Below, one piece after another: positions 4,364 to 64,000 of a stretch of 64,000 nt of DNA. The notes beneath the pieces were generated by a model. That model had not been told where the DNA came from. It ran no database searches and worked only from the letters and a program-made list of their open reading frames with translations. Made by a program: the position numbers and the translations under genes. Location of the stretch: assembly GCA_002118135.1 (NCBI GenBank), contig BDIU01000355.1:1-64000 (forward strand), written 5' to 3'. The stretch comes from Trebouxia sp. TZW2008. Its lineage: Eukaryota > Chlorophyta > Trebouxiophyceae > Trebouxiales > Trebouxiaceae. How positions within the stretch are numbered: the stretch's first letter is position 1; every line of letters starts with the position of its first letter.

Positions 4364-7300
4364 ATGTCTTCGCAGCCAGAGCCAGACGCAGGGCCAAGCA
4401 GTGACGGCAGTCACGACCGGTCCAACAAACGTCAGCGGCGTCAGGTACGGTTGGATGACCGTGCCATGATGCTCGAGTCACATCGTGATGTTGCACTCTT
4501 TCGCAACGTTCTTGTTGCATACTACAGCTTCAAACACGTTTGCCCAGTGAAGGCAAGGGCCTGCATAAGTGTCTGATCGGCAGCACAGTCTAGGAGGCTG
4601 TTCGCGTCACACACGGCCGACACTATCTCTGCCGATGTCGATGAATTGATGTATCGGTGCCTGACTGCAGGTCCCTGCAGAGCAAGCCCAGGCTGCACCT
4701 GCAGTGTCACCACCACTGCACGTACTGCCCAATGCTGGTGCTGTCCCTGCGCCAGGCTCCCTCCTGAATGTGCAGAACCTGTACCACTTGCAACTGGCTC
4801 AAGCTCCGTTGGTGCAGCCTTCTCTGCTCAACAGAACACAGCCTAGCTTGCTGCACCTTACACAGCATCTTGAACACGACCCACAGCACCAGCAGCAGCT
4901 TCAGCAGCCGCCTCACCAGCAGCATCAACAGCAACAGCAGCAGCAGCCGCAGCAGCAGTTGAGTCATGGTGATCAGCTAGAACAGCAGCACAACATGTTG
5001 AACCGTCTGGATGATACAGATGCTGCAGAAGCAGGCATGTCTCTGCCAGCTAACACTGACTATAAGCACAAGCCGCGCCGGAAAGCCACTGAGAGACCAT
5101 CGGTAAGTGCACTGCCCTCCTCCCACAACATTCCTGACATGATGTACATCAGTTTGCTCAATCAACACTGCTTGCTTGCTGCCGACCACGTTTACAGGCC
5201 TCAAATGCCAAATATGGCAATTGACATGGTAAGCCAAGGGATGTCAGTGGCTATCACTGTTACACAATCACTTCAGTTTGTAAGGACACTCAATGTGAGG
5301 ACATTCTTGGCGCAAGGATAGGCGGAGCCAATCACTGCATGCTGACTGCACCTAGTACCTCTGAGTAAGGACGATTCATTTTGTGGACAAGTTTGTCGGG
5401 AACCAAAGCAGTCGTTACAAAGAGAATTCACCGTAGATCCATACCATTGTCAGTGTCTCTTGCTCAGCCTGCTTGTAATGCTTGCAGGGAACAGACCAGA
5501 TCAGGCAAGCATTCAGCAAGCGCAAGAGGGGCCTGGCTCTCAAGTGTTATCAGCTACATAAGTTAACAGATGCAAAGGTGATTAGCATCCCTGTCACTGC
5601 ATACATGGCAGTTGCAAGCTGCCATCACGATGTCAACAAGCTGTGATGAGCAATCTTTCTGGCATGAGAGCTCATCTTGCCTGTGCCAACAGAACAATTT
5701 CGCTACATTTGCTCTGAGTGGGCTTACATAAGCTGACAGATGCCAAGGTGCTGCCATTTCCCTTCGCTGCATGCATTGCAGTTGCAAGCTGCCATTTAGA
5801 TCTCATTGAGCTGTGCGAAGCAACCTACGGTCATGACAGCATATCTTCCCGCGCATCTTTTGACTTTCTGTGCCCCCGTCACTGCATGCATCACAATTGC
5901 AAGCTGCCATTCAAATGTTGCTGAGCTGTGATGAGCAATTGCCTATGTGAATGTGTATCCTGTGCCATCAGATCATCTGTGGTGCATTTGCATTTAATGT
6001 TGTTGTCAGTTTTGCAGGCGTCAGCACATGAGCATGCAGGTAATTGTGTTGATTTCTGAGCTGTGGCTGGTTTGTTTTGCACTCAGAGCGCTTTTTGCAG
6101 AAAGACAGCCTTGCCTTCATGCACACACCCAAGTGATCTGCAGTTGCCGGCATCTGACTCGGTTGTATATAGATTGCATTAAGCTGCCTTCAGAAAGCTC
6201 TGCCTGTCGAAGTCCTGTGTCACTCTCAATGTTCCATATTTGCGCTTGTCCAAGACACAAATGCATGGCCTGCACAGGTGCGCTGCTGATGATCCTTGCA
6301 TTTGCCAGAACTGCTGTTGTCTCACGCACAAATGCATGGCCTGCACAGGTGTTTTGCTTCATCATGAAGGAGAAAGGCACTTCTTGGGCTTATGCAACAC
6401 CTGGATTTGGCGCTTCCCTCTCTGCATCCAATCTGAGACAGCTGCGGCAGCTGACCGGTACAGTGATTTCTCTTTGCAACGGCTACTTTGGTTCCCAACA
6501 AACTCGTCCTTACATCAACTGTCCTTGCTCAAAGGTGCCATTGCAGTCAGAATGCAGTGATTGACTCCCCAATTTGTTGTCCTTACATCAAGATTGTTTT
6601 CACATCAAGTGTCCTTACAAAGAGAAGTCATTGTATGCTAAATTTTCTTTTTAATCGTTTCCTGAGGTTGCTGCTACTCACTGAGGCGTCTGTCATGATG
6701 CCGTGCAACACAGAAAGTTTGTTTAAATCACAGATTGACCACACTCATACATGCTGGACGGTTGAATGCTGCTGATGGTGTAAGAATCTGGCTAAGCAGT
6801 TGCAGCACCAATGGGCCAACACTACAAGCATGTCGACTTTGGGAAGCATACTGCATTATGCGTTGCACGTTCTTCAGATGCAGCTGTGAATTCAAAGCTT
6901 GCCGCACATTCAGTTTACCCTATCAAACATGCTGACTGCTGCAGGTTTGTTGCAGCAGGCTGTGGCTTTGGAGGACAGCATGCTGCTTGCGACATCATCA
7001 GCGCTGTTTCGAATTGAAGAGCAGCTGTCACAGCATGTTGTCAAGTCTGTCACTGTATACAATGCAAACGTGTTTTGATGCAGGCTTTGACCAGGCATCT
7101 GATGGTGGCAAGCAGATCACAGAGATCATGCCCCACCCTGCTGCTGGTGACGCTGATGACAGGGATGCGTATGCTGGGACAGTTCAGTCCATGCAGCCAT
7201 CAATGGCACAGCCCAGTGCAAGCCTGATTGGAGGGCCAGACTTTGACCCTGAGCCTGACGTCACTGATCATGGCACAACAAGGGAAATTGGTGTGCAGGT

Positions 7301-8337
7301 AGCTTGATCAGTCGTGGTGATGCTGTTTGATGCACTACCCTTTGCTGATCGTTTGCCGACTAGCACACCTACATGCTGTCAAGATTGCAATATGCTTTGG
7401 AGAATGCACAGCTTGTGTTGTGACAGAGGTTGAATGCTGGAGCCATGCTGCTCACTGATTTCTGACGGCTTACTGATTGGTGCATGCAATCTAAACTTAC
7501 ACTTGAGATCTCAACATATGTTGCAAAGTGTAGCACAGGAGTCATGAGACTCTGAGGGCTGCATCACAGTGTGCTTGAGTGGCAGCATCAACAATAGTGC
7601 TTGTGCAGGTCACTTCTCATATACAGACTGGATATTCTGGCATGACAGATGAGGTCGCATCAGCTTCAGAAGCACAACAACCAGCAGGTACTACTGACAG
7701 CTCGTGGCATCGTTCACTGAAGGTCTCTTTACAGGTCTCACCATGCTTGCTTGTCATAAGAGATCAATTGCGCCAGAGACACCATGATGCTCTGGGCTAT
7801 TCCCCCCTGTGTAACACAGCTTTTAGTGCTCACATGCAAACTGCAACAACATTCGTCGTGCAGCAGCTGCCGGTGGCGTTCTTGATGATGCACATTGATG
7901 AGTCATAATCACTCGACTAATAAATGCTTTCTGTGCTTGCAGATGAGGTCAGAAACTTTGTGACAGAGATGGCTCATTTGGCATACAGTCGGGGGGTCCC
8001 AGTTGGCCCCATACCTACCCCCCCTGCTGCTGACACCCCTCATGGAGGTCACCTTGTCAACCTGCCCTCCTCCTCTGGCCACCTCCTGCAACAGCCTGCA
8101 ATCAGTCTGCCTCCTCACCTCACTCCTGGTCACCCTAGCTTTGACCAGCACGCTTATCAGCTGCTCCTGCAACAGCAGCAGCAGCAGCAGCATCAGCAAC
8201 AGCAGCCGCCAGCTCAAGCACAGTTGCAAGAGCGCTCAGAGCAGCCAGAGGCACGTCATGACGGCTTGCCAGAAGATGAAAAGCAGGCACTTCAGGGTTT
8301 GCAACCCATGCAAGTCTCAGGACATGTAGGGCCTTGA
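4364..8337 (+). CDS. MADS-box transcription factor with polyQ tracts
   Basis: Model: 4364-4444 (or to 4546), 4671-5102, 5488-5577, 6349-6457, 6945-7039 (or to 7054), 7095-7298, 7609-7687, 7943-8337; all phases close (about 494 residues). The MADS domain spans residues about 160-235 and is built from three exons: RRKATERPS, then GTDQIRQAFSKRKRGLALK and CYQLHKLTDAK, then VFCFIMKEKGTSWAYATPGF. This matches the SRF-type pattern TFSKRK-G-KKAYEL-LTG-V-TG-Y-FATP. It should bind CArG-like DNA as a dimer in the nucleus. Unlike most plant MADS proteins the domain follows a Gln-rich extension of about 155 residues; a second polyQ block lies near the C-terminus (8166-8205). No keratin-like K domain is visible. 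Introns 2 and 4 carry MITEs, and intron 3 carries partial copies of the MADS exon end. A TGTAA poly(A)-like motif lies at 8393-8397. Confidence 0.82.
5263..5433. mobile_element. MITE copy 1 (Tc1/mariner/pogo-like ends)
   Basis: A 171-bp non-coding element in intron 2 of the MADS gene, flanked by TA at 5261-5262 and 5434-5435. The right end GTCGTTACAAAGAGAATTC is inverted-complementary to the left-end consensus CAGTAAACTCTCTTTGTAAG; the left end here is degenerate but keeps TTTGTAAGGACAC. It shares interior segments (for example GGAACCAAAGCAGTCGTT) with the 15.4-kb copy. Confidence 0.7.
5557..5940 (+). repeat. Partial copies of MADS exon 3 end in intron 3
   Basis: The last bases of exon 3 plus the intron start (CATAAGTTAACAGATGCAAAG then GTGATTAGC, 5557-5655) recur at 5726-5822 with CATAAGCTGACAGATGCCAAG|GTG. 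The intronic portion recurs a third time at 5878-5940 (TTGCAAGCTGCCATT). The second copy keeps both the coding sense (HKLTDAK) and the GT donor. Confidence 0.7.
6461..6633. mobile_element. MITE copy 2, abutting a 5' splice site
   Basis: A 173-bp element flanked by TA (6459-6460 and 6634-6635), with left end CAGTGATTTCTCTTTGCAAC and right end CTTACAAAGAGAAGTCATTG as imperfect terminal inverted repeats. It starts immediately after MADS exon 4. The donor GTACAG is made of one host G, the TA target and the first bases CAG of the element, so the insertion appears to provide the 5' splice site of this intron. Confidence 0.72.
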
Positions 8338-12700: not shown

Positions 12701-15700
12701 TTACTTAACGACAGTCGTTGATTTTGCATTGCTGCTTGTAGCAAAGCCTGTACATGCCAGGCGTTCTTTGCACCAAGTTTTATGTGTTTCAGCAGTGTTA
12801 ATGCCTGCCAAGAAGCTGAGTCTCGTCAGCATCCTGTTTGCAACTGCTTGCTATCCTCAGAACTTGCAGCAAGTAGACCCCTTGCTGCCGTACATGTTTC
12901 TCTTCACATTCAGGTGATATGCTTTGGCTCCAGGCTGATGTGCACAACATCAGCATAGGCCTTCACATCGCACAACAGTATTGGCATCGCGCCTTGTCTA
13001 CGTACAGTGTTGCATGTTGCTCCATGTTTATTTGCATTCAAACTTAATCTATGTCTAGACCGCATGGCTGCAACAGAATTGTGCACCTAGAGAGAGATAA
13101 AGAGAGTAAATTCACATGCTTTGACCAGCCAACAAGGCTTATCGCAAGTGCCACAAATTGGCACTGTCTATTTTTCCATGAGGTTTAGGCAGTCTAGCAT
13201 CGTCATGAAATTTTGATAGTGTGTGAGCATTGGTGATGTATGTGAGTCTCTGCCATGCACAGGATCTGCTGGGACGCCTTTGAGGACCCTGAAAGCGGTG
13301 TTGCAACATACAGCTACCAGATCTTTCAGATCAATCCCCCACCTTCATCCTCGGCTAATCTTACAGCCGCTGGGCCAGCTCCCTCAGCTTCCCGTAAGCT
13401 CCTGCAGACCCCAACAGCAGCCCCAGTGACCCCCTCAGTAACCCTGGACGCCAGCACGGCACCCAGAGCACAGCTGGTGTCAGGCCTCAAGTTACAGTAC
13501 GGCGCCACGTATTATGCGAAGGTTACAGCCACCAACAACGCTGACTTGACCACCACTTCAAACTCCCCTCAAATGTCAGTCAACAAGAGCACTGGCTTCC
13601 GTGGTCTGCTGATTGCCATTGTGGTGCTGGTGTCTATTGGCGTGAGCATGCTGCTGGTGGCTTGCTTGGCTGCCTTCATTGTGAGGAGACGGTGAGCCTC
13701 TGTCTGGCTTCACTTCTACAGCATTATGTTGGTTTTGTTCGGCTGTGCGCATTGTGCAGTTGTGAAACAGGAATGTTGACCGCTGTTTAAACCAAGAGCA
13801 ATCCTGGTGGATCTGGACCCAGAAAATGTGCAGACGTATCAGCTTTGAAGCTTTTCAACCGAGATAGGTGTTGCTGCATGTTTGAGACAACTTTTCTAGC
13901 TTGACAGCGAAATTGTCAGGCTGCCAATCTTGTTGCATTCTGTGCAAAGCACAGTGCAAAGCACAAGACTGCTGGACTAGCATAATGAATGCGTTGCCTT
14001 GACAGTGAGACTTGACCGTCTCTCAAAATCTGCTGCTTTGCCCAGATCAAAAAGTCTGACCATGCTTAGCACGCTTTGCTCAGGCTGGTGCGGCAGCAGG
14101 AGGAGACCAGAGCACAGTGTGGCCAGATGAAGCAGCTAAAGGGCCTTATGCACGGCTTAGTTGACGTAACAAAGTGTAAAAAGTTGAAATCAAGATTTGA
14201 CCATGCTGTGCATGCTTTGGGCAGGCTGGTGTGGCAGCAGGAGGAGACCAGAGCACAGCGTGGCCAGCTGAAGCAGCTGAAGGGCCTCTTGCATGGCTTG
14301 GTCACCAGTTTCAACTGAAAAGCCAGAGACGCTTTGAGAATGCTGACCCTGCTGTGCATGCTTTGCACAGGCTGATGTGGCGGTAGGCCGAAAACAGAGC
14401 ATAGCGTGGTCAGATGAAGCAGCTGAAGGGCCTCTTGCTGTTCAGCTTTTGCCCCTGCTTTGCACACATTGTTGTGGCAGTTGCAAGTAACCAGAGCAGA
14501 GCAGAGCTAGAAGTTCCAAGTCTAGCCATGCTGTGCACATTTTACACAGGCTGGTCCGCGGCAGGAAGAGATAAAAGCACGGCATGGCCACACGAAGCAG
14601 CTGAGAGGTCACCAGTTACGAAGAGATGCTTTAATAGTGCTGACTCTGCTGTGCATGCTTGGCACAGGTTAGTGCGACGGCAAGAGGACATCAGAGCACA
14701 GCAAAATCAAATACAGTAGCCGAAGGGGTGAATGCTCTCCAGCTGAAGCAATCCCATGCTGTTCAAGTTTTGACCCTGCTGTGCATGCTTTGCACAGGCT
14801 GGTGCGGCGGCAGGAGGAGACTAGAGCACAACGTGGCCAAATGAAGCAGCTGAAAGGCTTCATGCATGACACAACAGAGAAGCAAGAGACGCTTCAGGAA
14901 TGCTGATCCCGCTGTGCATGTTTTGCACAGGCTGACTCAGCGGCAGGAGGAAACCAGAGCGCAGCATGGCCAGATGAAGCAGCTGAAGTGTCTCGTGCAT
15001 GGCCTGGTCAACGTGACAGGTGACCCAGAGCAAAAACAGCAGCTGGAGCTGATTGGCTTGCTTTTTGACCTTTGACCCTGCTGTGCATGCTTTGCACAGA
15101 CTGGTGCGGCGGCAGGAGGAAACCAGAGCACAGCGTGGCCAGATGAAGCAGCTGAAGGGCCTTATGCACGGCTTGGTCAACGTGACAGGTGACCCAGAAA
15201 AACAGCAGCTGGAGCTGATTCGCAATGCGCGTCAGCTGGCGTTCCTGATCACCGACCTGCAGGACTCCACTGCCATGGCTTCAGCCAATGCAGCAGCGTT
15301 CAGGAAGGTTCAAGACATCCACGACACGGTAAGTCAGCTTGCATCCAGTGAAATTTCAGTAAGTCCACCTCATCATGAGGCAACGGTGTTTTTTTCCTGC
15401 CCTTTCCTTTTTAAGCAAAGGGCAAAGTACAGTAAACTCTCTTTGTAAGGACACTTGACGCAAGGACAATCTTGATGTAAGGACGACCCTATTGGGTACC
15501 AATCACTCATTTCAACTGCAGTGGTCCCTCTGAATAAGGACAATTTGATGGAAGGCAATATGTCTTGGTAACCAAAGCAGTCGTTGCAAAGAGAGTTTTA
15601 CTGTAATAGGAAGGCCTAAGGCGACATGACTTGATGAGTCCGATCAGGTATGCAAAATTGGTATGACAAAGAGGGATATTGGTGAGCTTCAAGACGTGCA

Positions 15701-18700
15701 TGACACGGTGAGTCCATTCAATAAGAAGGCAAAAGACACAGGAGTAGGGATTGCAAGTCATGCTTGACACAGTCAATCCACTCAACCTTGCGGCAACAAT
15801 AGAACAATAAATCAGTGAGGTCAAAAACATGTAGAGTCTGTACATCAACACGGCAACAATGAGTTTGCAAAAAGCAGCTAGTCCAGGACATTTACAGTAT
15901 GATGACATGTATTCACGACAGATGATACAACAATGAGACACAGGCACAAAGTGCACGTTGTTGCAGCTGCCGTTCCCCATGTTGCCAAGAAGAACTCAAG
16001 CTGGCACAGCATCTGCATGTCTGTCTTTCGCCTGTGGTTTCTTTTGCAGCTCAGCCACAGTGCGTGTGACCTTCCCTGTCAATTTTGTTGCAGGCTTTTC
16101 CATCTGTTCTTCACACTTTTGATAGTTTCCAAAGGAAGATCAAGTTCTGTCACTTGCGGAACACTGAAGCAAAAGAATGATGCACAAAATTGCTGCAGTG
16201 CATTTGGCCATTTAGCCACATATGTTTGTTTGAGGAGCATTGCAATAGGGACATGGCTGCTACCATGCTGCCTTATAGATGCATGTGGGCAAACGGCCAA
16301 ACGCACTATAGCATGTCTTTTTGCCATTCTGCCTGCAGAATCTGCATGATGCTTGCATACCCAGCGTGTTGATGCCACGAATTGTGGCAAGGGAAGTTTG
16401 ACAAGCCACTGCGATGTGTGTGAGGGCTGCTGCCTCTTTGAACAGAAGCTCAAGCTGCTCTGCCCTTGGGAGCTTGTACAGTAGCTTCTCTTTGTAACGA
16501 CTGCTATCATTCCCAACAACGTTCTCCTTATATTAGATTGTCCTTATTCAGAGGGATTGTTGAAGTCAGAGTGCAGTGACTGGTTACTAATAACATTGTC
16601 TTTGTCGATTGTCCTTACAAAGAGAAGTTTTTGTAGTGACAGTACGCTGACAGAGCAGCCAAGCTTCTGCTCATGCAGAGCCAGGCTACAGCTTGCAATT
16701 GCAGAAACCTTTGATGATGTTGCAGAACCTGGTTAGTCTCTGAGATTCCCCACTCAGGGGTTTCTTTAGTTCCCCTTGAGGGGTCCATTACACCCTGTCT
16801 GCATCAATCTTTGTATAAGTCTTCTTTCACCTACACTTGCTGTCCTGGGTACCCAATTGCTGCACAGGGGCATTGCATTGTATTCAACAGGTACAGATCA
16901 ACACAGACAAATCACGCCTGAGGTTTGTGTGACGCTGTTTGTGTCACTGCGGTTTCTTTTGCGTTCAACTGACTGCATGACCACTATACAGTTTGTGTAC
17001 TGAAGACCCTGTCCTTTCTTCTGTCAAAATGCACCTCTTTCTCAACACTTTCTGTGACGTCCACCCATTTGCTTCATATGGATTTGCCAACTTCAGTGGG
17101 TATGAGATCAGTACAGAGGGGGACTCCTTCCAGACCGCCTTCACCTCAGTGGCAGCTGCAGTGCTCTTCTATCACAGCAAAAGTTTCACCTGACATTTGC
17201 TGTTGTGTTTTGAGTTGCTGCATGAGGGCATCGCCAAGTTCAATGGGAGATCAACCCAGCGGAAGACTCCTTCCAGATTGCCTTCACCTCCGTGGCAGCT
17301 GCAGTGCTTTTCTGTCACGGTCCAAACCCTTCTTGACACTGGCTCCTATGGGTGTGCAGTTGCTGCATGAGGGCATTGCAAAGTTCAATGGGTATGAGAT
17401 CAACACAGAGGGGGACTCCTTCCAGATCGCCTTCACCTCAGTGGCAGCTGCAGTGCAAGTGGCCATGGAGACCCAAGTGCGTCTGCTGGACTCTGACTGG
17501 CCCAAGGATGTGCTCAAGCTCCCAGCCTGTGGCCAGGTACCAACCTGTCTGCTATGCGCAATAAGAGTCTGGATGCCTATGAATACAAGTTCTTCAAGGG
17601 GGTTTCCTTAGGGCAGGTTCTGATACACTGATCATTTATCACATGCATGCACGCATGCTGCAATGCTATGGCTAGCTCGCATGTCTGCACTGAAACGTAG
17701 GCTCGGTCCTGATCCATCAGTCAGCATTTTTCACCTTAAGTGCCTGTTTCTTGAAGCACAGAGACCCATTTTGATCTTGCAGCATGCTTGGTCGTGCTCA
17801 CACCTTTTCTGCCTACAGCAATGCTTGGCATCTGCAGTGCTTCAGCAGGCTCCAATGCATTGAACACATCATGTAACATGGCATCAACAGTCACTCGTTT
17901 TTAATCTGGAGTGCAGGAGAAGGATGACAGAGGGGAGAAGGCGTTCAGGGGTCCCCGTGTGCGCATGGGCATCCACTGGGCTGTGGAAGGCACCGTTGCC
18001 AACAGGTGCCTGATCCTGCTCCTTGTCTTTGCCCTGCCCCTCCTCTGCGTTATTGACTCTGTAACGCAAGGAAGATTCTTGAGATGGCGACTGCATCATC
18101 AGCAAGGAAAGTTTCACTAGCCTCTGAGGTACAGGCTAGCAGAATTCAGCTTGCCAGCAGTGTTGGCACCCATTGGGCTGTGGAAGGCACAGTTGCCAAC
18201 AGGTCCTGCCCTTTTCTTTGCCTGCTTTCACAGGATCTGCATTGCTGACAAGTCGCTGATATAATCTGATGAAGTGAGTACGGTGGCATTTTTTGAAGTT
18301 ACTTTGAGTGGTATTGAGCTTGCAAGCATGGGCTGTCATGAAATGTCAAGAGTAGGGCGCAAAAAGGTCAAGGCAGTGGCCTAACATGCGTGCATGCATG
18401 ATTGCCAAGCCTCTGCACAACTGCAGCATGCTTGCCACATTGTTTACAGCAAGGCAACTCAGCTGACACAATCAGGAGTGGTAAGAGCCCAGCGCATGCC
18501 AGCATATGCATCTCAGACCACAGGGGTGTTTGATGGTTCAGCTTTGGCTCTTCGAAATGAAAGCACCAGGTGCAAACCACTTCGCAATGATGCAGATTGC
18601 ACCTGATCACAAAGCACAGGGTGTTCAGCGGCCCAATTTCTGCCCTTGCGGAAGAATTAGAGGCCAGGTGCTGTTGAGCAATGATGCCTGGCTGAACCTG

Positions 18701-41226: not shown

Positions 41227-41316
<90 letters not shown>

Positions 41317-48785: not shown

Positions 48786-48819
<34 letters not shown>

Positions 48820-51800
48820 GGGCTGAAAGATGTAGAGATACTATGTTGCAGGCAGCTGAGAGGAGCGAGAAGTTGGAGAGTGAAGCCAGTGCAATGGAAG
48901 GGCAGTACGCCAGTGCCTATGCAGGCGCCAGGCAAACCTACACTCAAGGCAGAGCCCGCCTAGATGCCATACAAGCGGTATGCCTCTGCCCACTCTGTGC
49001 TAACCATGTGATGACGCCTTGATGCCATCCCAGCTGTACGCTTCTGTCAATGATGTACCTTACAGTGAGCCTGCCTGGACGCCATTCAAGCCATGTGCTT
49101 CTGCTCAATAGGTCAGCGCAGCAAGTTTGCCTTGGTGCCTTTCAAGCTACCTGCTTCTGCACATGATGTGTCATCACAGTGACTCTAAGTAGATAGCATC
49201 CAAGCTGTATGCCTCTGCCCACTGTATGCCAGCACAGAGAGTTTGCCTTGGTTCCCTCTGAAGTTGTATGCCTCTATCCATCTGATGGCGCCTTGTATGT
49301 GCTCTGCAGGCAAGGACACGCAAGCTGGAGGCTGAAAGCAAGCTGGCGGGGCTGCAAAAGGACCTGGCAGAGCTGGGCACTGTGTCTGGGGACCAGGTGG
49401 AAGCTGAAGAAGCACAGACCCTGCAGCTGCAGCAGGTACACTTGCTGATCAATTGCTCATGCCATGAAGTCATCTTGCAACAGGCTGCCAGAGGGAAGTA
49501 GCTCCAATATGACTAACCCGTTCCGCAATTGCCAAACTTTTAATGAGATGGGGTTCTGAAACTCATCTGAGGATTTTTTGCCCACTTGCTGTGGCCCACA
49601 ATTTCTGCCAACAGATGGCAAGTGGGACTGCCCTGGGCAGTGATATTGAGTGGCTTGTTGCAGGCATGACTGATATGAGCTTGACACAAGCATGCAGATG
49701 TAAAGATTGAGCTGTTGTATATCACAGCCCTGATCATTACAAGAGATTGCAACTGCAGAGGGCAAGAAAGCAGCGCTTGAGATGAGCGCCAGAGCGGTGC
49801 AGGAGGAGCATGAAGACCTGCAGAAGGAGCTGGAGACAGTGCAGGATCTGGAAATAGTTCAACTTGTGAGTTCACTTAATTGACATCAGAGCGCTGCTGC
49901 TTGCAGGAGATTGCAACTGCAGAAGGCAAGAAGGCAGCACTTGAGATGAGCGCCAGAGCGGTGCGTGAGGAGCATGAGGACCTGCAGAAGGAGCTGGAGA
50001 CGGTGCAGCTGAGCGTGGAGGCAGCCAAGGCAGATGTGGCCACCGCCCAGCGTGAGCTGCGCACCCTCAGAGACAAGGTAGACAGTTGCCATATCAAAGT
50101 ACATCTGATTTGCCCAGTCTCACCAAACCTTTGTAGCAAGTGACAGCTATTCAAATATTGCCTTGACACCACAATACCATAAACAAGGCAGCTAAGACAG
50201 ATGTGGACGCTGGCCAGCGCAAGCTGTGCATCCTCAGAGACAAGGGTTACACATACAGCTCAGTTGTTTGTAGCTGTTTGAAGCTCAAGCAAAGAATAGC
50301 CTTTGTGGCATTAATTTGATGTGCATGACATGTAGAGCTTGAATGCATCACAGCCATTGTAGCATACCTGGTCTCTGGCAGATGAGGCCACAGCCAGATG
50401 TAAGTCGTGCAAGGACAAGGCAAGCATTCTCAACATACCTTTGCTGCAAAGTACAGCCATGCTGGGCAGCCAAACCAGATGTGGCCAATGCCTCGTACAA
50501 GCTGCGCACCCTCAGGGAGAAGATAAGCAAATACAGCTCTGGGCTGAGTCCTAGGTCTGCATGCAGCTGCTGCTGAGCAGCAGCTAGCTGTGACCCCCGC
50601 CCAGCACAAGAGAGCTGCAGAGCCTTTTCAAGCAGACAGCTGAGGTGGTACTGCAACTTTCTGCATCGGTGTTCAGCTGTGACTACCTGTCAGTTGCAAG
50701 CTCCTTGCAAATTGATAGTCTTGCCTACAAGTCCTCCTGCAGCTGTTATGGAATCAACTCATTTGGAATGCAGCTGCGTGGGGAAGATAGGACTAGCGTA
50801 ACAGAGCTGCAGAGCCTGTTGAAGCAGACAGCTGAGGTGTACCGCAGCCTGGTGCAGCATGCCAAGGCAGCCAGCGTGCCAGTACCCCCAGAGGCCCAGC
50901 TGGGCTCTGGAGGGGTCAAGAGGGGTCCTGAAGAGCTGCAGTATGATGAGTTTGCTGCTGCCAATGCAGCTGACTGGGATGACTTCCAGGATGAAGGTGT
51001 GTCATGGAACAATGGGCTGCGTGTAGTCACAGAAGCTTCTGTTCTGACGTCGCATAGCATCTGTAGTTCCTAGACTGTTAAATGTGGCTGCAGCCCTGGG
51101 CACTTGTTGTTTGTCTGTACATTTTGCACCGCCAGGCCAAATTCTGAGAGACATGACAGAAATGCTCTTGCCACTATGCTGCGCCCAGTAGACGGGTCAT
51201 GCCAGCAGTCTCACAAAAGAGAGTTGAGCATCTCTTGACCTTTGATGCCTGCTGTCTTCACTGTGGCATTGGCACCAGCTGTATGTGTATGAAGAGGCTG
51301 CTCTTTGCGTGCAGCATGCTGGCTACCCACATGCTTTGCACAGCTCCCTGCTCTGTGAACTCATCCTCAACTTGCATCGCCCACTCTGTGCACTTACAAG
51401 TGCTAGCCCTCAATGCTCCACAGCAGCAACAGAAATGGCATGGGAGAAGCATTCTGACCCTTTCAAATGGTTGATGCAAAAAATATGACCAAAACAGTTG
51501 TAAAAGCATGCATGATGCAGGATTTGTGGTGGTGAGTGCACTACCCAATGACAGCCGCTATGTGAGCCCAGCTAGCACAACTGCCCCCTCCCCCATGGGC
51601 AGCCGAGGGGGTTCCTTTACAACCCAGGGGCAGGCGCAGAGGGGCACCCCTATGAAGAGTGGCTTGAGCAATCAGTCTGCTCAGTCTGCACAGTCCACTG
51701 GCCGGGCTTCTGACTTTGGTGACACAGCATCATCAGGTGAGAATGGTTCAGACTGCAGCACCTTTTTGGATTAGCACAATGGAATTGTCATCACAGAGAG

Positions 51801-53282: not shown

Positions 53283-56200
53283 ATGGCTCCTCCCGAGTCA
53301 GCTGTGGAAGGATTTGGGTATGGTGACCCGAAGCGCGACATCGACCGCAGCAACTATGTACGCAAAACCGACGAATACGTTAGAAGAGCCGAGGCATACA
53401 AGCTGCAGCCGCGAGTGCCTGACTTCGAAAAGCTGAGGTTTGGTTCGGATGTCATGCCACATGTACAGGGAATTTTGGCATTGTATGACAAAGTGATGAT
53501 ACGGTGTTTGCGCTGTCGCAGACGCTCTGGTCCTCAGGGCAAAGTCGAGCCTTTGACCATTATCGATGACCCAGCAGACTGGAGGGCTGCTGATCTCAAG
53601 GTGGGTCATGTCACTAGATGTGTTGCATGTGGAACTTGCACTGATCCAGTTGTGCTTCCCTTGCCTTTTCCAAAAGGTGACCTGTTTGTGTGAACACATG
53701 ACTAAGGCAATACTGCAATTTCTGAAGCATAATGCCAATGGGCAGCATAGCAAATCATTCAGCAGCTCGCATCAAGAAAATGTGCCCACAGGGGCGCGAG
53801 GATGAATACACCTACCAATTCACTCAGAACGACATCACAGAACTCACAGCTGCTGTCAGCAAGGTCAAAGCCTCTGGCGTCACCACCGAGCGGCAAATTC
53901 TGCAGGTCAGATACTATTCGCCTGTGACTTTGCTAATGGCACACTGAATGCTGTTCAGCAACATGTTGCAAGAAATCAACACAGCAGGTCGCCACTGCCC
54001 AATTTCATGCTGCACTGCAACAGTTCTGGGGAAAAAACCCAAAAGTGACACAGGTTTCCTCACTATTGGTGCCAATCTTCAGATCTCCAGCAGCATGCAT
54101 TATCGCATTCTGGCGGGCACTGTCCTTTTTGTGTGCTCATTGCACCGCTGTCAAGCTGTTGTCATGTTCGGCCCTTGGTGCTACAAGTGATAAGAGACAA
54201 CCTGCCTTCGTCTGCAATGAAGCTGCAGGCATGACAGGACCAGTGTCACACATAATTAGTAGCCATGCTGAAACACGCAATCCATTCATTCATTCTCTTT
54301 GTCAAGCGGCAGTTATCTCTGTATACTGGTGCTGCAGTTGACCAGGGATGATCTGCCTTTGCCCAGCCTAGCACCTAAGCTGATTGCAATTGGAAAGGAA
54401 GTCAACTCTGGCAGAGGATTCCACGTGCTCAGGTTGGTGCCTTCCATTGTTTCACCATCTGCATACTGCACAAGCAATACATGAGCCCTGACATGCAAGC
54501 ACTGTCTACGTGCATGTGTTGCACATACAGTCTGGAGCATTTGACTTTGGAGCAACATCGAGGCCAAGCAGCGAAGACACTCTGACATTTTGACACTCAA
54601 CTTCAAAACGAGTAATAGCCACATGAGCTGACAAGGCTGAGAGGCTCAGAGCAAGCCAGCAAAACATGATGGGCATGTGACATCTGCACCCTGTGGAATT
54701 TGTTTTGCATGCGTGCGGTGTCATGCATGTTTGCTACTTGTTTTCGCATTTGAGCTTGCTGTGGTCATACACAACAATATCTGTTCATTAAACAGCCTCA
54801 AATGCTGGACCACAATGAAACAAAATGCTCCCATTTTGTGCAGGGGCTTTTCAGTGCAGCAATACGGGAAAGACAGAGTGGGCTAAGTCATAGCTTTTTG
54901 GGCTTTTGGGCATCATTTGGGCAGACCTCTAATTTCTCAGATAGACTACCAAGGCGGACGGCTCCATGTTCCTGCTGTTCTTCCCACATCAAGCAACCTG
55001 ACTAAATGGCGCATGGCTCAATGTCTGCCGTTGCTATGTGCAGGGCCTTTCCAGTGCAGAAGTATGGTGAGGACAGAGTGGGATTGATCATAGCTTTCTG
55101 GGCTATGCAACGTGTCTCAACTTGATACACAGCATATGTTTCCTAATGTCTTGTTGCTGCTTTGTACAGGGGCTTTCCTGTGCAGCAGTATGGAGATGAC
55201 AGAGTGGGCTTGGTCATAGCTTTTTGGGCTTTTGGGCTTCATTTGGGCAGACCTCTGATTTCTCAGACAGACTACAAGGCGGACGGCTCAATGTTCGGGT
55301 CAGTTCTCAACCATGTCACTGATGGCAGGTGGCTAAAAGGTAAGACTGCATGTTGTGTGCTGTTTGTTTTTTGCGCATTGTCAGCTAATGCAGAGCTCCC
55401 AGCTCTTGGGACTCCTGTTTATTGTGCGTATTTCAGAAAAACGCTGATAATTTTGGGGTTATATTGATTGTATCTTGACATACAGGCCAACTGACAGCTT
55501 GTTGTGTTGATGATTGTTCCTTTCAGCTGGCTGACCATGCTGTGAACTGCCTTTAGTGGATTGAGGAAATGGTGGGCTAGCTGTGGCTGACAGGAGGGGC
55601 AAGATTGACAAGATACGCCTGGCATTCTGTGGTGACCGAGGGGCTACTGACATCATTGCCCTGTTGTCGATCTGAGTTGTTTTGAGTCGCAAGTGTTCCA
55701 TCCACAGTGTTTTGGAAACCATGTGAAGGCTGACTATGCTATGTACTACGTTCAGTGGATCAAGGCAATGGTGGGCTAGCTGTGGCCGACAGGAGAGGCA
55801 AGATTGACAAAACACGCCTGGCATTCCATAGTGACCAAGGGGCTATTGACCTTATTGCCCTGTTGTCCCTTGGGGCTGCCCCACAGGGTGGAGAGAGCAA
55901 GTGGGTCTCTGCTATTGCCATACACAATGAGCTGCTACGACGGGGCAGAAAGGTGAGCAGCAGAACAATGGTTGCAGTCTGATCATTGTGATTGCAGTCT
56001 CAATCTAAAAGGTGATTGTGGACAGAGCAAGCGGGTTGCTGTTATTGCCATCCACAACGAGCTGCTACGGCGCAGCAGAACGGTGCAAAGCTTCCTTGCT
56101 ATAGCCACTACAGCGACTTCAGGAGACTGCCAGACATGAAATTAATCCCACTCGGAAGTATTGCTGCATCCTGTAGCAGTGCTTGTTTCCTTTTGCACTG

Positions 56201-58057
56201 TCCTCACAATGAGAACAGAACGATGACAACAATAAAACATCACGTCAAGCGTCCTTTGTAATTGTGGGTATTGTTGTTTGTTACTACTTCAGTAGAGACA
56301 ATGGCACTGATAGTCACAACTATCATATCTTAGTGTCTATCAGCAACCCTCATGCAGTAGCAATTCTCACAGCAGCCATCATCACACAGTGTTGAAAACG
56401 AAAATGGCATTCTTACCAAGGCGCAATGCTGTAACATGGCAGTTGTGGGGTGCAGGATCTGGTAGAAGAACTGAGCAGGGCAAAAACGTGGTACACTCCA
56501 AGGAAGCTGTCGCAGCAAGCCTATGAGCGCAATCAGGACGGCAGCTTCAAGGGGTATGAAGAAGAGGTATACTATGCATGCATACTGGCTGAAAATGCTC
56601 CCTTATGCATTGTGGTGGTGATGTCAGCTTTCATGATGCGCTGAGACATGTGTGGCTTGAATCACAGCTGCATTACTTATCAGCCATGTTGGTAGCTTTT
56701 GTGACAACAAACAAGAAAACAGCTTCAAGAGATATGCACAGGAGGCATGATAGTACGTGTGACACTTGCAAACTTTGGTGCAGATCCCCTTTGCATACCA
56801 TGAGGGCTATCTTTCTGTGCACTATGAGGCCAACAAGTATCAAGACATCAAGCTCTCGCCCCTGCAAGAAGAGGCTGTCTGGTGAGACCTCATTGCTGGC
56901 CGCACGTTGCACTTCTTGATGATTCTTTGGGTTGCTGGATTGGCCGCAGCATTTGCAGCATCGGAGTGTACTGGTTATACTGAAAAGGCTTAGTCAAGTC
57001 AACAACACATTTGTGTAATGAGCACAAGCAGCTGAATTGTGCACACATCAGACAATTCTCTGCCCATCATACAGTAAAAAGCAACAAGCATCTAATTAAA
57101 TTGCATGCTGAAGCTCAATTGTAATAGCAACTGATGTGGGTTATACGATTCATCAGATTGTCAAAACCATGCACCACAAAAAGTTTTTTGTGTGTTACAT
57201 GAGATATATGCCCAAACTCATACTGCAGGGCTGTGGCATCTTTGGCTGAAAGCCCAGAGTTCCATCTCTCCAAGAAGTTGCAACCTGGCGACATTGAAAT
57301 TGTACACAACCCAACAATTTTCCATTCACGAGGGGAAGTCTTTGACGGCGAGGTGAGTTCGTTCCTTAATCCTGCCTTTTTTGGTCAAAGGCTTTCTCAG
57401 CTGTGATTGTCAAGTCTGCAGTCTGACATAATGCTTCCTGGGCAAAGCTTTCTACAACTGTGTTGATCATGTTTGCGGTCTGGCTTGACGCCTTCTGATG
57501 CCTTTGTAACTTGCTGTAGTTGAGTAAGGCCTTCATACAAATCTTGCGTAGATTGTACTGTTACTTTGCCACGCCCAACACATTGATTTGTGTGACCAAG
57601 TTGGATGTTCAAAGATACCTATTGCAAAATGGGCACATATTTAACATGCACTGTCGTACATACTGCTGCAAAACTTGTGGCCTCATGCATACTACATTTT
57701 CTGTTGTGTCACAAAATGTTCCAAGTGTGTGGATGCAACCTGGCATGTACAAATGCTTTGTTTGGCTGGCTCACTTGCTTGCTTTCCTGCCCGCTTGCCT
57801 GCATGCTTGCTTGTGGGCTTGCTTACTTACATGACGTGTCCTGGTTGCAGACACCAAAGGAGAAGCGCCACTTGATACGGTGGTGGATAGCTTCAGACGC
57901 TAACAAGAGACCCATTTCTCCTCTTTTTGCACCCAGATCCAATGTACAGGCCACAGGGGGTTTCAGGGTACCAGAAGGGTCTCAAATTAGGTTACCTCTG
58001 TACCCATACTCCAGGCACGACGGGCTTGGCCAGTCTCCAGCCGAGATTGAAGAGTAA
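53283..58057 (+). CDS. TauD/TfdA-type Fe(II)/2-oxoglutarate-dependent dioxygenase
   Basis: Nine exons close in phase: 53283-53600, 53792-53905, 54338-54432, 55170-55328, 55793-55952, 56456-56566, 56784-56881, 57229-57352, 57851-58057 (461 residues). The catalytic core reads LPLPSLAPKLIAI, GRGFHVLRGFPVQQYGDD, AFGLHLGRPLISQTDY, then TRLAFHSDQGAIDL (His-x-Asp iron ligands), GGESKWVSAIAIHNELL, FAYHEGYLSVHYEANKY, KLQPGDIEIVHN and FHSRGEVFDG (distal iron His). HLIRWWIA carries the Arg expected to bind 2-oxoglutarate. Residues 1 to about 106 begin MAPPESAVEGFGYGDPKRDI; the end of this part (IIDDPADWRAADL) resembles the usual family N-terminal DPxxWxxxDL motif, so only the first ~90 residues are extra. 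The substrate is unknown; there is no targeting signal. A TGTAA motif at 58319-58323 probably marks the 3' end. Confidence 0.86.
54842..55110 (+). repeat. Two copies of dioxygenase exon 4 start
   Basis: 54842-54965 repeats nearly the whole exon-4 start (GGGCTTTTCAGTGCAGCAAT; later frame break and TCAGATAGACTACC). 55042-55110 repeats its first part (GCCTTTCCAGTGCAGAAGTA). Both follow GTGCAG acceptors; the true exon is 55170-55328. Confidence 0.78.
55582..56092 (+). repeat. Copies flanking dioxygenase exon 5
   Basis: 55582-55675 is an upstream copy of the exon start (GACAGGAGGGGCAAGATTGA; the His-x-Asp equivalent reads CGD, so iron ligation would fail). 56020-56092 is a downstream copy of the exon end (ATCCACAACGAGCTGCTACG). 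Confidence 0.78.
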
Positions 58058-58897: not shown

Positions 58898-61800
58898 ATG
58901 TTGAGGTCCTCAAGACTCGGCTGCCCCCCAATACCCAGACACTCACTGTCTACAAGCTCTGCCGTGCCGGTCACATCACGAGGCATTGCTCGGACCCGTC
59001 GCAATGTTGGGCTTCAAACCGTTGCCGGCGAGGGCAGATCCTTCAATAGGACGACGTGGACCTCACAACAACTGCCTGCATCACCTACAGTCCTTGATCA
59101 ACCCAAAGATCAAGCCAAACCTGGCAACGCTGCTGAGCTGGTAAGATTTGCTAGCATTCACGTTGCCAAGCCTTCTGCATCAGCCCTGACTTCCCTATGT
59201 ACAGCAGTGTGTATAGCACAAGGCATCAACGTCTTGCAAAATATGTGCATGTTAACATAGGTGTGGCAGGCATCCCAAAATCTGCAGCCAATCTTTGCCG
59301 GCATTGACCAGCTAGTGGGAAGGAACCTACGTCGGGTGCAGACAGCTATGCGTAGGCACAGAATAGGACCTCACCACTTCAGTGGTTCAACAGGCTATGG
59401 CCATGGGGACCTGGGGCGCGAAGCATTTGACGAGGTACTTTTGTTGACGGTAGCAAACTTTACATGTGATAGCACAAGTGCTAGGGGTGAGGTACAAACC
59501 CTGTCTTGCCAGGTCAGCTTGACAAAGTGCTTGCTGGCTTGCACTGGCAGCTTGAGAACCATGGCTCATGTGCCATGAAACCATGACGTCGTGTCAGGTC
59601 AAGGATGATGTTTGTTCAGGTCGTCCTGACAAGAGTTGCAACAGCAACAATCTGCTTATCAGCATGTCCTCTACAGGTGTATAGTGCATGCTCTTGCTGT
59701 GGCGCTCAAGACAAGCTAGCTTGCCAGATCAAGGCCAGTTTCATGGCAGTTGCTGTCATGAACAAGAGCTCAGACATACAGGGACTATTTTCATTTGTAT
59801 GTTGGCAACCTGCATGTGATAGAGCAACCTCCTGACCATACAAACTGCACGTCATCAGCTTTGACGCACAGTCCACATGTAAGTCTGCCCTGCGAACAAC
59901 AGTGGTAGGCAAGCTGTTTAGCACTTAATGACGCCTCAACTCGTCATTCCTGCTTGACTGCCCCCCTCTGAGGAGTTTGCTGCAATGCAGGTGCTGGCAG
60001 AGATGCTGCCTGCCGAGGCAGCGCTTGGCTGCACGCCAATGTCACCGCACTTTACTACATCCTGCTGCCTGGTTGCGAGTTGTACATGTGGGTACATGCA
60101 CATTACAGAACTTTCTTTGTTGTAGGTGTTGGCGGAGTTGTTGGGTGCGGAGGCAGCGCTTGGCTGCATTCAGTTTGGGTCGGGAACCCATGCAACTGCC
60201 ACTGCCTTGTACTGCATTTGCTGGCAGGGCTGTACATTCCCATGCCACAAAACTGCACATTTATATGTTGTAAAGTGCACGTTTTTGTTGATGCAGGTGC
60301 TGGCAGAGGTGTTGGGTGCAGAAGCAGCATTAGGCCGCATCCAGTTTGTATCAGGCACCCATGCCATTGCCACCGCCCTTTATTCTGTGCTGCGGCCTGC
60401 TGATGAGCTGCTGGCAGTGGCTGGTAGGTGGGCTTTGCACATCATACCACCTTCTTCTTCATTTTCATGTTTGTCTTTTTCATTTCCATGATCTTCTTCT
60501 TCAGCTTTCTATCCTGCCACGAGGCATCATGTCCATTGCCACCGCCCTTGATTCTGTGCTGCGGCCCGGTGATGAGCTGCTGGCAGTGGCCGGTAGGTGA
60601 GCCTTGCACGCCACCTGTTCCTTTTGTTCTTCTGTTGTTGTTTAGCAGCTTCTTCTGCTTCTTCTATATGGCATCATGTACTTTGCCACTGCCCTGCATT
60701 CAAATCTGCGCCCCAGCGATAAGGTGTTGGCAGTGGCCGGTGGGTGGGCCTTGCGCACCATTCCTTCTTCTTGCTCTTCTTCTTGCTATTGTTTAGCTGC
60801 TGCTTCTTCTTCTATATGGCAGCATGTACTTTGCCACTGCCCTGTATTCAGTTCTGCGCCCCGACCATGAGCTGCTGGCAGTGGCCGGTAGGTGGGCGTT
60901 GTACACCACTTCTTCTTCCTGCTATTCTTCCTCTTCATGTTGTTCAGCAGCTTCTTCGTTTTCTGTATAGCATCATGTATTTTGCTACCGCTCTACACTC
61001 TGTGCTGCAACCCGGTGTTGAGCTGCTGGCAGTGGATGGTAGGTGGGTTTTGCAAGTCTTCTTGCTCTGCCTGTCCTTCTGATTGTCAGTCATGTCTCTT
61101 TTGGCGCTGTGCACACTGCGTAGACTTCTGTGCAACATGCACGACAATTTGTGCACACTGCGTAGACTTCTGTGCAACATGCACGACAATTTGTGCTTCC
61201 ATGAGGCTGTATATTGTGTTGCAGATGCCGTACATCAATTTGTGCATGACACTCTTGCTTTTGGTGACAGGCTGCAAGACACCATGATGGGATGAGGGGT
61301 TGAGGGGCACATCCAGGCATCCCACACAGTCACAGACAACAGTGTCATCATCATCTGCTTCTTCCCAATCTTCTTCTTCTCATGGTCTTCACTCATCATG
61401 TTTCTCTTGAGGACTAGTCAAAGACTGATCAACGCAAACTTTTGGTAACAGGCCATATGACACTATGGAGAAGGTGATAGGATTGAGGGAGACACCTGAG
61501 CATGGCAGCCTCAAGGAGTGGGGGGCCACCCTCATCTTCTTCACATTTGTCATATGCTTCTTCCCCATCTTCATCTTCTTCACTGGGGTTCTTCTGTTCC
61601 GGTGACAGGTCATATGACGCCATGAAGGAGGCAGTAGGCTGAGGGAGACCCCTGAGCATGGCAGCCTCAAGGAGTGGGGTGTCACCTCCTTCTTCTTCAT
61701 CGTTGTCACACCCTTCTTGTGCTTCGTCCCCGTGGTAGGCTGTATGACACAATGGAGGAGGTGATAGGGTTGAGAGGAACTCCTGGGCATGGTAGCCTCA

Positions 61801-64000
61801 AGGAGCAGAGGTCACCCTCATCTTCTTCATCATTGACGGACCCTTCTTCTGCTTCATCTTCTTCACTGAGGTTTTTTTTGCTTGGTGGCAGGCCATATGA
61901 CACAAAAAAAGGAGGTGATAGGGTTGGGGGCACCCCTGAGCATGGCAGCCTCAAGGAGCGGGGCTCCACCCTCATCTTCTTCATCACTGTCATGCCCCTC
62001 TTCTGCTTCTTCTCTTTGTTCCTCTTCTTCACTGAGATTCTTCTTCTTTGGTGGCAGGCCATATGACACAATGGAGGAGGTGATAGGGTTGCGGGGTACC
62101 CCTGGGCATGGCAGCCTCAAGGAGTGGGGGGTCACTTACCGAGAACTGCCGCTGGCTGAACAGGGTCTCATTGACTGGACTGCCCTCCGCACTGCCATTA
62201 CGCCCCGTAAGTCACTGTTACTACACCATGAGTCACCCTTACTCAGTCACTTATAATTTGGGCCTTGTGAAGTAAGCTGCCCTCCGCTGTGCCATCTCAC
62301 CCAGTGAGTCATCCATCAGTTACTCCTTGCAAGACAACATGAGTCACTGGCTTGACGACTATGTCTTTGATGTTGTTTGGGGGCTGCCATCCAATTTGTC
62401 ATGTGCCTGCCATATCCTGTCACGTGGCAGTTGTCACTCTTGCAGGCAGATTGTCGTCAAAAAATATGCCATGCTTTTGAGGCAACCTCCTGGCAAGCTA
62501 CATGCATAAGCCACGTTGAAGATTGTCGTCTGAAAATATACCATGCATTTGAGATAGCCTCCTGGCAAGCTACATACATAGAACACAGTGCAGATTATTG
62601 TCAGAAATTATGTCATGCTTTTCAGGCAAGTTCCTGGCAAGTTACACGCATTAGACACGACCACATGTTTCACGATCAATGCCTCAAGACACAGTCAGGC
62701 TTTTGCAAGCGTTGATCAGACAGCACAGTCGCACCACCAAAGGCAGCTTTCAGGAAGACTGGTGACCTGCAAGGTCCTCTTTACAGCATTTGGCATAGTC
62801 GCATCAGCAATGACAACAGCAGTGACACTACCAACATACTGACCAGCAATATAGGAACATTGGTAAGCACACTGGTGACAATAGATATGACAACAGCACT
62901 GATAATGGTGCCGGTACTAGCGACAGCAACAGCAACAGCGACAGCAACAGCATGTACATTGTCTTAATGCTCTGGATGTTGCAGAGACAAAGGTGGTGGT
63001 GCTGACGCTTCTTGACCAACTCTGGACATCGCTGAGATTAATATGGCTGTGCAAGTCATCAAGGCTCAGGGCCCTGACTGCATTCTGGCTGTGAACAACT
63101 GCTGTTGGTGCCGTCACTATTGATTGTTATTGTTGTTGGTGATTGTGATCACTGTCATTGTTGGTGTTCACTGTAGTCAACATGATTTGTTCAGGCACAA
63201 AGGTGGCGCTGATACAGAGGTCCTGTGGCTACGCCTCACGCCCAACTTTGGACATTGCCGAGATTGACATGGCCGTGCAAGTGATCAAGGCTCAGAGCCC
63301 TGACTGCATTGTGGCGGTGGACAACTGCTATGGGGAGTTCACAGCTGACAAAGAGCCCTGTGCTGTAAGTGCTCTTTCTCTGCCAATCATCTGCAATGTC
63401 TTTCATTCCTTGTGCAGCCAGACAAAGTCACAGTTGACATAAATTCTGTGCTTCTTGTGTCCTTACCATTGTGCCTTCTCAAGATTGTTTGCATTGCCAG
63501 CTGTGAACAACTGCTACAGAAATTTCACAGCTGATAAGGAGCCTTGTGCTGTAACTGCCCCCCTTCCTGTCAGCGGTCTATGGTTACATCTGCATTGTTA
63601 GCATGAGTCATCGCATTGACTGACTCATCATGTGGCTATGCCTCACGCACGCCCAAATTAAGACATTGCTGAGGTTGACATGGCGGTGCAAGTCATCAAG
63701 GCTCAGAGCCCTGACTTAATTGTGGCTGTGGACATCGTCCCCATTCAATTGAAGCCACGCTTGCCTTGACAGGTCGGGTTTGACTTGTGTATGGGCATCA
63801 GCATGAAGAACCCAGGGAGCACCATAGTAACAGCGGGATGCTACGTTGTTGGTAAAGCAAGCTTAGTGGCTGCAGCACAAGCTCGCCTGATAGCACGGTG
63901 TAACTTGGCTACAGAGTACTTTGAGCAGTGCGACTGAACTTTGTGTTTTCCGTTATAGGTTGGGGCTGACTTGTGTATGGGCAGCCTGATCAAGAATCCA
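58898..64000 (+). CDS. PLP-dependent aluminum-resistance/methionine-gamma-lyase-like protein (partial)
   Basis: Exons 58898-59140, 59270-59434, 60297-60427, 62058-62206, 63195-63364 and 63959 to the window end close in phase (300 codons visible). The Arg/Ser-rich start MLRSSRLGCPPIPRHSLSTS looks like an organelle transit peptide. The body matches the Alr family (Pfam Met_gamma_lyase): HHFSGSTGYGHGDLGREAFD, QFVSGTHAIATALYSVLRP, RPYDTMEEVIGLRGTPGHGS, TKVALIQRSCGYASRPTLDI, IVAVDNCYGEFT, and the cofactor Lys in GADLCMGSLIKNP. It is a fold-type I PLP enzyme; the substrate is not established from sequence. The exon-3 donor is the second GT in GGTAG|GTGGGC, the only choice that restores frame. Exons 3, 4, 5 and 6 all have neighbouring copies; a complete alternative for exon 6 lies at 63773-63851. 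Confidence 0.85.
59982..61046 (+). repeat. Copies flanking PLP-enzyme exon 3
   Basis: Upstream copies of the exon start begin at 59989 (GTGCTGGCAGAGATGCTGCC) and 60126 (GTGTTGGCGGAGTTGTTGGG). Downstream copies of the exon end lie at about 60525-60600, 60670-60748, 60823-60898 and 60967-61048 (GAGCTGCTGGCAGTGGCCGG then TAGGTGGGC). CTTCTTCTTC-rich tracts separate them. Confidence 0.85.
61109..61192. repeat. Exact 42-bp tandem duplication
   Basis: Two adjacent identical 42-base units (61109-61150, 61151-61192) starting GTGCACACTGCGTAGACTTC, in the intron between exons 3 and 4 of the PLP-enzyme gene. Confidence 0.9.
61452..61975 (+). repeat. Four upstream copies of PLP-enzyme exon 4 start
   Basis: Copies following CAG/TAG acceptors at about 61453, 61609, 61738 and 61890 each read CATATGACACTATGGAG-like sequence and ATGGCAGCCTCAAGGAG, spaced about 130-170 bases. 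They carry frame shifts; for example the 61890 copy has an A-run expansion. The true exon starts at 62058. Confidence 0.85.
62449..62655. repeat. Three-copy ~68-bp intronic tandem repeat
   Basis: Units containing AGATTGTCGTC, ATGCCATGCTTTTGAGGCA and CCTCCTGGCAAGCTACATGC repeat three times in the intron after exon 4. They do not resemble any exon I can identify. Confidence 0.75.
62991..63735 (+). repeat. Copies flanking PLP-enzyme exon 5
   Basis: 62991-63112 is an upstream copy of exon 5 (ACAAAGGTGGTGGTGCTGAC ... ATCAAGGCTCAGGGCCCTGA). 63489-63560 and 63610-63730 are downstream copies of its end and middle (AACTGCTACAGAAATTTCAC; GTGGCTATGCCTCACGCACG). All carry frame damage; the true exon is 63195-63364. 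Confidence 0.8.
63773..63851 (+). other. Alternative candidate for PLP-enzyme exon 6
   Basis: Acceptor TTGACAG, open coding VGFDLCMGISMKNPGSTIVT and AGCYVVG, donor G|GTAAAG: a complete exon-like unit in the correct phase. Compared with the exon starting at 63959 (VGADLCMGSLIKNP) it changes GADLCMGSL to GFDLCMGIS but keeps the cofactor Lys. Whether it is used, or is an echo, cannot be told here. Confidence 0.55.

Follow-up and report, generated by a model that had tools for sequence, protein, structure and literature searches.

Copies of exon sequence lying beside their originals are known from several systems. In the available parts of PMC9013439, a similarity search for tandem and mutually exclusive exons gave extra exon-like nucleotides amounting to 2% in human, 0.08% in fly and 0.06% in worm. 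Human proximal repair duplications, as presented in the accessible sections of PMC2671141, have a mean length of 162 bp, a median of 147 bp and a maximum of 619 bp, with filler of 1-68 nt at the breakpoints; that set left out copies within 50 bp, and one captured exon in opposite orientation is described there. According to the available text of PMC8355091, small duplications are the commonest insertions under 100 bp. Tandem duplication is also a known mechanism of intron gain, reviewed in PMC3443670, which in its available text cites Gao and Lynch 2009 and Hellsten 2011. By a term search of their accessible text, the pattern reported below is undescribed in the Trebouxia genome papers PMC11523091 (no mention of intron, exon or tandem) and PMC12712428 (intron once, in a reference; exon and tandem not at all), and it is likewise undescribed in the open-licence literature searched, as far as its available text goes.

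The window, that is, the whole stretch of 64,000 nucleotides analysed here, is nearly all of one contig (64,708 bp) in a genome assembly of 68.5 Mb and 527 contigs. A sequence-only reading had reported that introns in most of its genes hold decaying copies of the neighbouring exon edge, which we call echoes. Self-alignment of the window (E<=1e-5) gave 88 direct pairs no more than 1 kb apart and 1 inverted pair. The same kind of pair was sought by self-BLAST in 20 other 10-kb loci (200 kb; L010-L029, bases 100001-110000 of 20 contigs, a choice that favours long contigs), which yielded 202 near direct pairs and no inverted one, so that the ratio for window and sample together was 290 to 1. Such pairs were present in 17 of the 20 loci, all except L019, L023 and L024. 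Direct repeats within 1 kb covered 17.9% of the window and 15.7% of the bases of the 20 loci, while dinucleotide shuffles of the window and the sample gave no near direct pair and no coverage. These results indicated that the echo pattern is real and extends beyond the window into the sampled loci. We explain it by frequent local direct duplication of DNA pieces of ~70-600 bp, filtered by selection on the mRNA, and give this reading a probability of about 0.78.

Grouping of the repeats produced 104 clusters with a median size of 2 pairs. The window held 29 of them (4.5 per 10 kb), and the sampled loci had a mean of 3.75 per 10-kb stretch (variance 6.9), which would correspond to ~25,000 clusters in the genome if the 20 loci are typical. 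Coverage by near repeats was 13.6% in intergenic DNA, 15.7% in introns (16.4% in the 220-intron count) and 19.5% in predicted exons; the duplication process is not specific to exon edges. The nearest copy typically lies ~160 nt away, and the size and placement of the duplicated pieces agree with the local copies of ~50-600 bp that repair or patch duplication leaves. The clusters do not fit minisatellites, which have units of ~10-60 bp in many copies: no direct pair here had a distance under 60, and the median cluster has 2 pairs. Separate short-unit arrays exist as well, with a period of 10-59 in 65 of 128 TRF rows. CAG/TGC-type repeats occur in the window at 4884-4958, 8169-8206, 41227-41435 and 48787-48818 and are partly polyglutamine in the predicted proteins. 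On a plastid-type contig (L009, 717-1217), a repetitive reading frame with SRKDTGYEK-like units lies beside a chlorophyte-type rbcL.

Within the window, the clusters fall in five gene regions, namely the cyclase gene, 36-41 kb, the EH-domain gene, the TauD gene and 59.9-63.7 kb, the last without assigned exons. Two further clusters lie within predicted features, an intron (5555-5939) and an exon (2759-2916). Of the seven predicted genes, three (1915-3962, 34673-35381 and 43051-44373) have no echoed exon. The earlier estimate of at least six affected genes in ten could thus not be confirmed as a count, while its figure of one to seven copies stands, as does its statement that the copies differ in age: the identity of window pairs lies between 67% and 97% when an exact 25-bp pair and an exact repeat of a 42-bp unit are not counted.

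The position of echoes relative to exons was determined with a gene finder self-trained on 264 kb (the window and the 20 loci), which predicted 49 genes and 224 introns with the splice consensus CAG/GTAAG at donors and TGCAG/G at acceptors. It merges neighbouring genes, calls some echoes exons and misses short exons, among them TauD exons near 56781-56882 and 57230-57355 that are seen in homolog matches; outside the cyclase and TauD genes, it is the sole source of the exon positions given here. Of the 254 exons with a length of 60 nt or more, 93 had a same-strand copy within 2 kb, some of these copies falling on predicted exons, compared to 1/254 on the reverse strand and 1/254 in unrelated flanks. 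Among the 270 alignments, those upstream of the exon reached its 5' edge in 95 cases, its 3' edge in 6 and both in 29, and 23 were internal; those downstream reached the 3' edge in 65, the 5' edge in 14 and both in 22, and 16 were internal. Counted per exon, the side rule was 50:5 in favour of the 5' edge upstream and 38:10 in favour of the 3' edge downstream (p 1.4e-13), with exceptions in 15 of 103 exon classes. Nearest echoes were full-length in 0 of 63 cases for exons above 110 nt (6.9 expected) and in 6 of 9 for shorter ones (6.5 expected), a count of 72 of the 73 nearest echoes from which full copies may be missing because they had been called exons. Exon-intron pairs numbered 111 compared to 76 ± 10 expected by random shifting of pairs along the loci, and intron-intron pairs 58 compared to 89 ± 12. 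A constrained partner should slow the divergence of a pair to about half, so that this excess would need no targeting of exon edges. Echoes mislead gene finding, since exons had been predicted at 77 of the 177 echo alignments measuring 60 bp or more, and this is a warning for annotation.

The gene at about 10000-34000 combines LRR with a class III nucleotide cyclase, is receptor-like and has full-length relatives in Trebouxia and Myrmecia. The ortholog of this gene in Trebouxia sp. C0005 (1891 aa; best block 88% over 38%) places most of the exons and has the echoed segments once, compared to six further copies in the window of the part starting at residue 577. The exons and echoes of this gene described here lie on the plus strand. 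Upstream of the true exon 15098-15331 (ortholog residues 577-654, 94% identity to C0005) is an array of at least six decayed copies of its 5' edge (14052-15057); several keep an AG acceptor, and three of six matches contain stops. The true class III cyclase exon at 17360-17536, which is 98% identical to the C0005 ortholog and matches solved cyclases too, is preceded by two copies of its 5' half (17066-17307). An upstream copy of the exon beginning at 18756 lies at 18589-18733, and downstream copies of the 3' edges of exons 20575-20775 and 21305-21475 lie at 20956-21054 and 21549-21621, respectively. Exon 22365-22550 has three upstream copies (21833-22337) and two downstream copies (22660-22942); the nearest upstream copy, 22158-22337, spans the whole match of the exon, and the gene finder fused the two. 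Copies flank exon 24061-24254 on both sides (23488-24470), where the choice of the exon follows the gene finder. Exon 25583-25803 has a donor of the GC type, and its 3' edge recurs three times downstream, at 25852-26263. The true exon 26949-27153 (93% identical to the C0005 ortholog) is preceded by three copies of its 5' edge with a period of ~184 (26383-26869), all three of which keep the acceptor CTGCAG, and followed by four matches to its 3' part (27244-27832). Finally, the 3' part of exon 31727-31945 is repeated downstream at 32184-32280.

Mapping of the C0005 protein listed 32 extra matches. Set aside were exons missed by the chain, as judged by the gene finder (17914-18237, 19341-19529, 23950-24255, 27732-28115 and 29505-29738), and 23908-23970, where chain and copies were confused. 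In the remaining 26, all 18 upstream matches start at the first residues of the exon or continue such a match, and all eight downstream matches extend to 0.89-1.00 of the exon match. Three of these 26 matches, at 22158, 23478 and 27293, span nearly the whole match and are uninformative on side.

The TauD-like protein (53.3-58.05 kb) is closest to proteins of Trebouxia sp. C0009 and C0006 (73% over 75% and 79% of the query), followed by an Asterochloris entry, Myrmecia and others; the genome is accordingly treated as that of a Trebouxia, probably a lichen partner, or of a near relative. The features of the TauD gene given here, too, lie on the plus strand. The exon 55170-55339, supported by the gene finder and homologs, has two upstream copies (54835-55104). 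Acceptor-like sites lie in them at 54844 and 55044, and the first copy, read by eye, contains a stop in the frame of the exon. The exon 55756-55952, supported in the same way, has an upstream copy of its 5' edge at 55529-55672 and a downstream copy of its 3' edge at 55993-56085, where GT is kept in a weak donor. Among eleven homologs, ten matched the exon at 55162-55332, and the same ten also matched 54836-54952, though less strongly by E-value. All eleven matched the exon that ends at 55952, nine its copy near 55589-55672 and ten the one near 55993-56079. All seven TauD homologs inspected carry each echoed segment once. The pattern is also present in a different genome, where an ORF from an ENA contig (P0138, 16 kb) has the same TauD exon edge twice, with the additional copy downstream.

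Elsewhere on the plus strand of the window, upstream copies with a period of ~82 (37482-37832) repeat the 5' edge of a predicted exon that starts at 37889, and an array of ~106-bp units surrounds the predicted exon 40544-40670 (40153-40669). In the EH-domain gene, the predicted exon 49907-50077 has one upstream copy of its 5' edge (49721-49844), which has lost the acceptor AG and is followed by a 40-nt spacer without detected homology, and two downstream copies of its 3' edge (50186-50525). Arrays of ~135-170-bp units (59986-61054) and ~157-166-bp units (61441-62135) and two local direct-repeat clusters, 62446-62659 and 62981-63734 (together 62446-63734), were assigned neither exon nor strand. 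A Pfam scan of 10 stop-to-stop frames gave only LRR models above the cut-off.

The proposed mechanism would account for this arrangement as follows. Local direct duplication would have been frequent in the lineage and would have hit DNA everywhere, exon edges among other places. Where the piece spanned an acceptor, splicing at the downstream acceptor, the one attached to the exon body, would turn the upstream repeat of the exon's beginning into intron; where it spanned a donor, continued use of the upstream donor would do the same to the downstream copy. Such a duplication would be tolerated because splicing still yields the old mRNA and discards the spare copy, and selection would retain the copy joined to the exon body and let the other decay. 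The choice of splice sites would probably be aided by truncation, since an echo with only one splice site would not be defined as an exon. The orientation ratio, the side rule and the copied intron flanks described next uphold local direct duplication across exon edges as such, and the single copy in orthologs and the neutral-like decay are further parts of the mechanism that were observed.

Copying extended beyond the exon edge into the intron flank in 33 of 69 copies on the acceptor side and 28 of 50 on the donor side, judged against the 97.5% point of unrelated controls (2.5% of which pass), and in eight of ten acceptor-side copies of at least 90% identity. In those cases at least, unspliced sequence was duplicated across the splice site; about half of all copies have an intron flank without detectable copying. 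A plain regular array exists at 26372-27056 with a period of ~184. Between copies of at least 83% identity separated by 30-130 nt (22 pairs), the spacer matched a flank in one pair at z>=4 and in six at z>=3; simulated tandem copies were recognised in 78-100% of trials for spacers of 45-90 nt and in 58-95% for 30 nt. Since spacers rarely match flanks, many copies are not plain head-to-tail. Fully homologous copies leave no gap, so the choice of these 22 pairs exaggerates the share of spaced copies, and the spaced class still exists. Spacers of 40-93 nt that match neither flank are seen, for example, at 49845-49884, 24260-24352 and 55669-55727. The unmatched spacers may be filler DNA or reflect later deletion.

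The rival that fares best is that breaks were repaired by capture of nearby DNA as a patch (synthesis-dependent strand annealing) instead of by tandem duplication. Its size range is that of the human proximal repair duplications in the available text of PMC2671141, and the spacers without homology would suit it. We consider it possible but unlikely, because capture can insert DNA in opposite orientation, whereas near pairs here are 290 direct to 1 inverted, and because regular-period arrays such as 26372-27056 look tandem. Breakpoints are decayed, and spacer homology at z>=4 is absent in 21 of the 22 pairs, a choice that favours such pairs. Under local direct duplication, the copying step would most likely be fill-in end joining of staggered breaks or replication slippage.

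Another possibility is that selection maintains the echoes as functional alternative exons, either mutually exclusive ones or poison exons that lead to decay. Echoes not called exons keep the acceptor AG in 56 of 69 cases and a GT or GC donor in 32 of 50, those called exons in 31 of 33 and 17 of 27, and 41 of 100 echoes are open and in frame. Nevertheless, we regard such a role as improbable for the set as a whole. Neutral decay was estimated to keep the AG in ~79% (0.89 squared), near the value observed, most echoes are partial, and the inspected orthologs have no second copy. Mismatch rates at codon positions 1, 2 and 3 were 0.122, 0.100 and 0.222 (~1:1:2), and the third-position ratio of 2.00 (bootstrap 1.76-2.29, n = 100 echoes) is the value expected for one constrained and one neutral copy; it was somewhat higher, 2.36, in the 41 open echoes and 1.85 in the 59 broken ones. 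A frameshift was present in 42 and a stop in 33 of the 100 echoes, so that 59 are broken and 41 have neither. Overall the copies carry no sign of coding constraint, and single cases may differ. Selection against echo splice sites is not indicated by the same acceptor count, which is close to the neutral estimate. Donor retention is somewhat low, and many donor-side copies may end before the donor.

Differences between copies comprised 797 transitions and 495 transversions. Among the 99 clusters that contain a pair of 60 bp or longer, the best identity per cluster peaked at 80-85% (40 clusters), and young copies were scarce, with one cluster at 95-98% and none above. With constant birth the youngest class would be the largest, so a steady process would not give this profile. 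The rate may have fallen, early divergence may be fast, or the assembly may have dropped near-identical copies; some exact short-unit repeats persist (42-bp unit, 61108-61196), which argues against wholesale collapse. RIP-like hypermutation was rejected as the cause of the missing young copies, as only a CpG excess was seen: C in the exon was T in the echo at 25.5% of CpG sites compared to 5.5-10.3% in other contexts. For seven exons and 22 copies with two or more orthologs each, few sites were informative; the echo shared the derived state of its own lineage in six cells (four exons), the ancestral state in one and another state in one. Barring parallel change, some copies therefore postdate the split from the sampled relatives.

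Near repeats were held by 91 of 220 introns and made up 16.4% of intron bases, with none in shuffled introns. Much of the intron length had been attributed to echoes, which these figures confirm only in part. Introns with an echo (76) had a median length of 557 nt compared to 422 nt in those without (148), and the lower quartile was 193 compared to 272; this reversal probably arose where the gene finder took echoes for exons and so split introns. Enlargement of introns by duplication is supported by these data. Creation of new introns by duplication across exon edges was also suggested; both intron ends would then lie in two copies of one AGGT-bearing exon piece. Although tandem genomic duplication is an established route, this is very improbable here: among 204 introns, none had a start resembling the start of the next exon, and one had an end resembling the end of the previous exon, with a borderline score. 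Introns grow by duplication and are not visibly created.

A mobile element or introner family carrying the repeats is hardly credible. A dispersed element does exist in the window, but the one unit region tested (26372-27060) occurs at a single place in 68.5 Mb, whereas introners put the same sequence into the introns of many genes, and echoes resemble the adjoining exon while unrelated flanks match 1 of 254 exons. The dispersed element has inverted arms and lies at 5264-6634, also at 15438-15597 and 16476-16583; its ~100-bp end has at least 41 matches on other contigs at 73-87% identity. Equally hard to credit is a false duplication of haplotypes or reads, for which the 527 contigs might speak, because copies of 60 bp or longer are about 4-40% divergent, and the differences between them include indels and follow codon structure.

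If local direct duplication is genome-wide, duplication across splice sites would be an important source of intron length in this alga. Each event would leave a neutral pseudo-copy beside a constrained original, an internal clock for neutral change, and the duplicated acceptors would be a direct test of how the spliceosome ignores them. A bolder proposal, which we put forward tentatively and hold to be somewhat doubtful, is that a past wave of duplication rewrote the introns with truncated exon copies and left thousands of competing, often intact acceptors that the spliceosome must ignore. If true, it would be a natural genome-wide experiment on exon definition and intron growth.

The following comparisons refer to the available parts of the cited papers. 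With tandem genomic duplication as a source of introns (PMC3443670), the echoes share short direct duplications that carry splice signals and are hidden by splicing; here, in contrast, the piece spans an existing splice site and the old intron grows. With fill-in end joining (PMC8355091) they share direct copies of the kind made at breaks with overhangs, although the pieces here are about 70-600 bp and the breakpoints too decayed to read. Like tandem and mutually exclusive exons (PMC9013439), they are exon-like copies in adjacent introns found by similarity search, but they are mostly partial, 59 of 100 are broken, their codon pattern is neutral-like and they are denser: non-exonic nucleotides that are exon-like at >=80% identity amounted to 12.3% per exonic nucleotide (254 predicted exons, 2-kb flanks), a value for which the published ratios are only a rough guide because program, annotation and flank size differ. 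The primate repair duplications (PMC2671141) share unit size, local placement, filler-like spacers and an intensity falling towards the present, whereas the copies here are in direct orientation, form multi-copy arrays and are apparently far denser. The kind of process is thus known and its density is high, and its extent together with the side rule is the noteworthy part.
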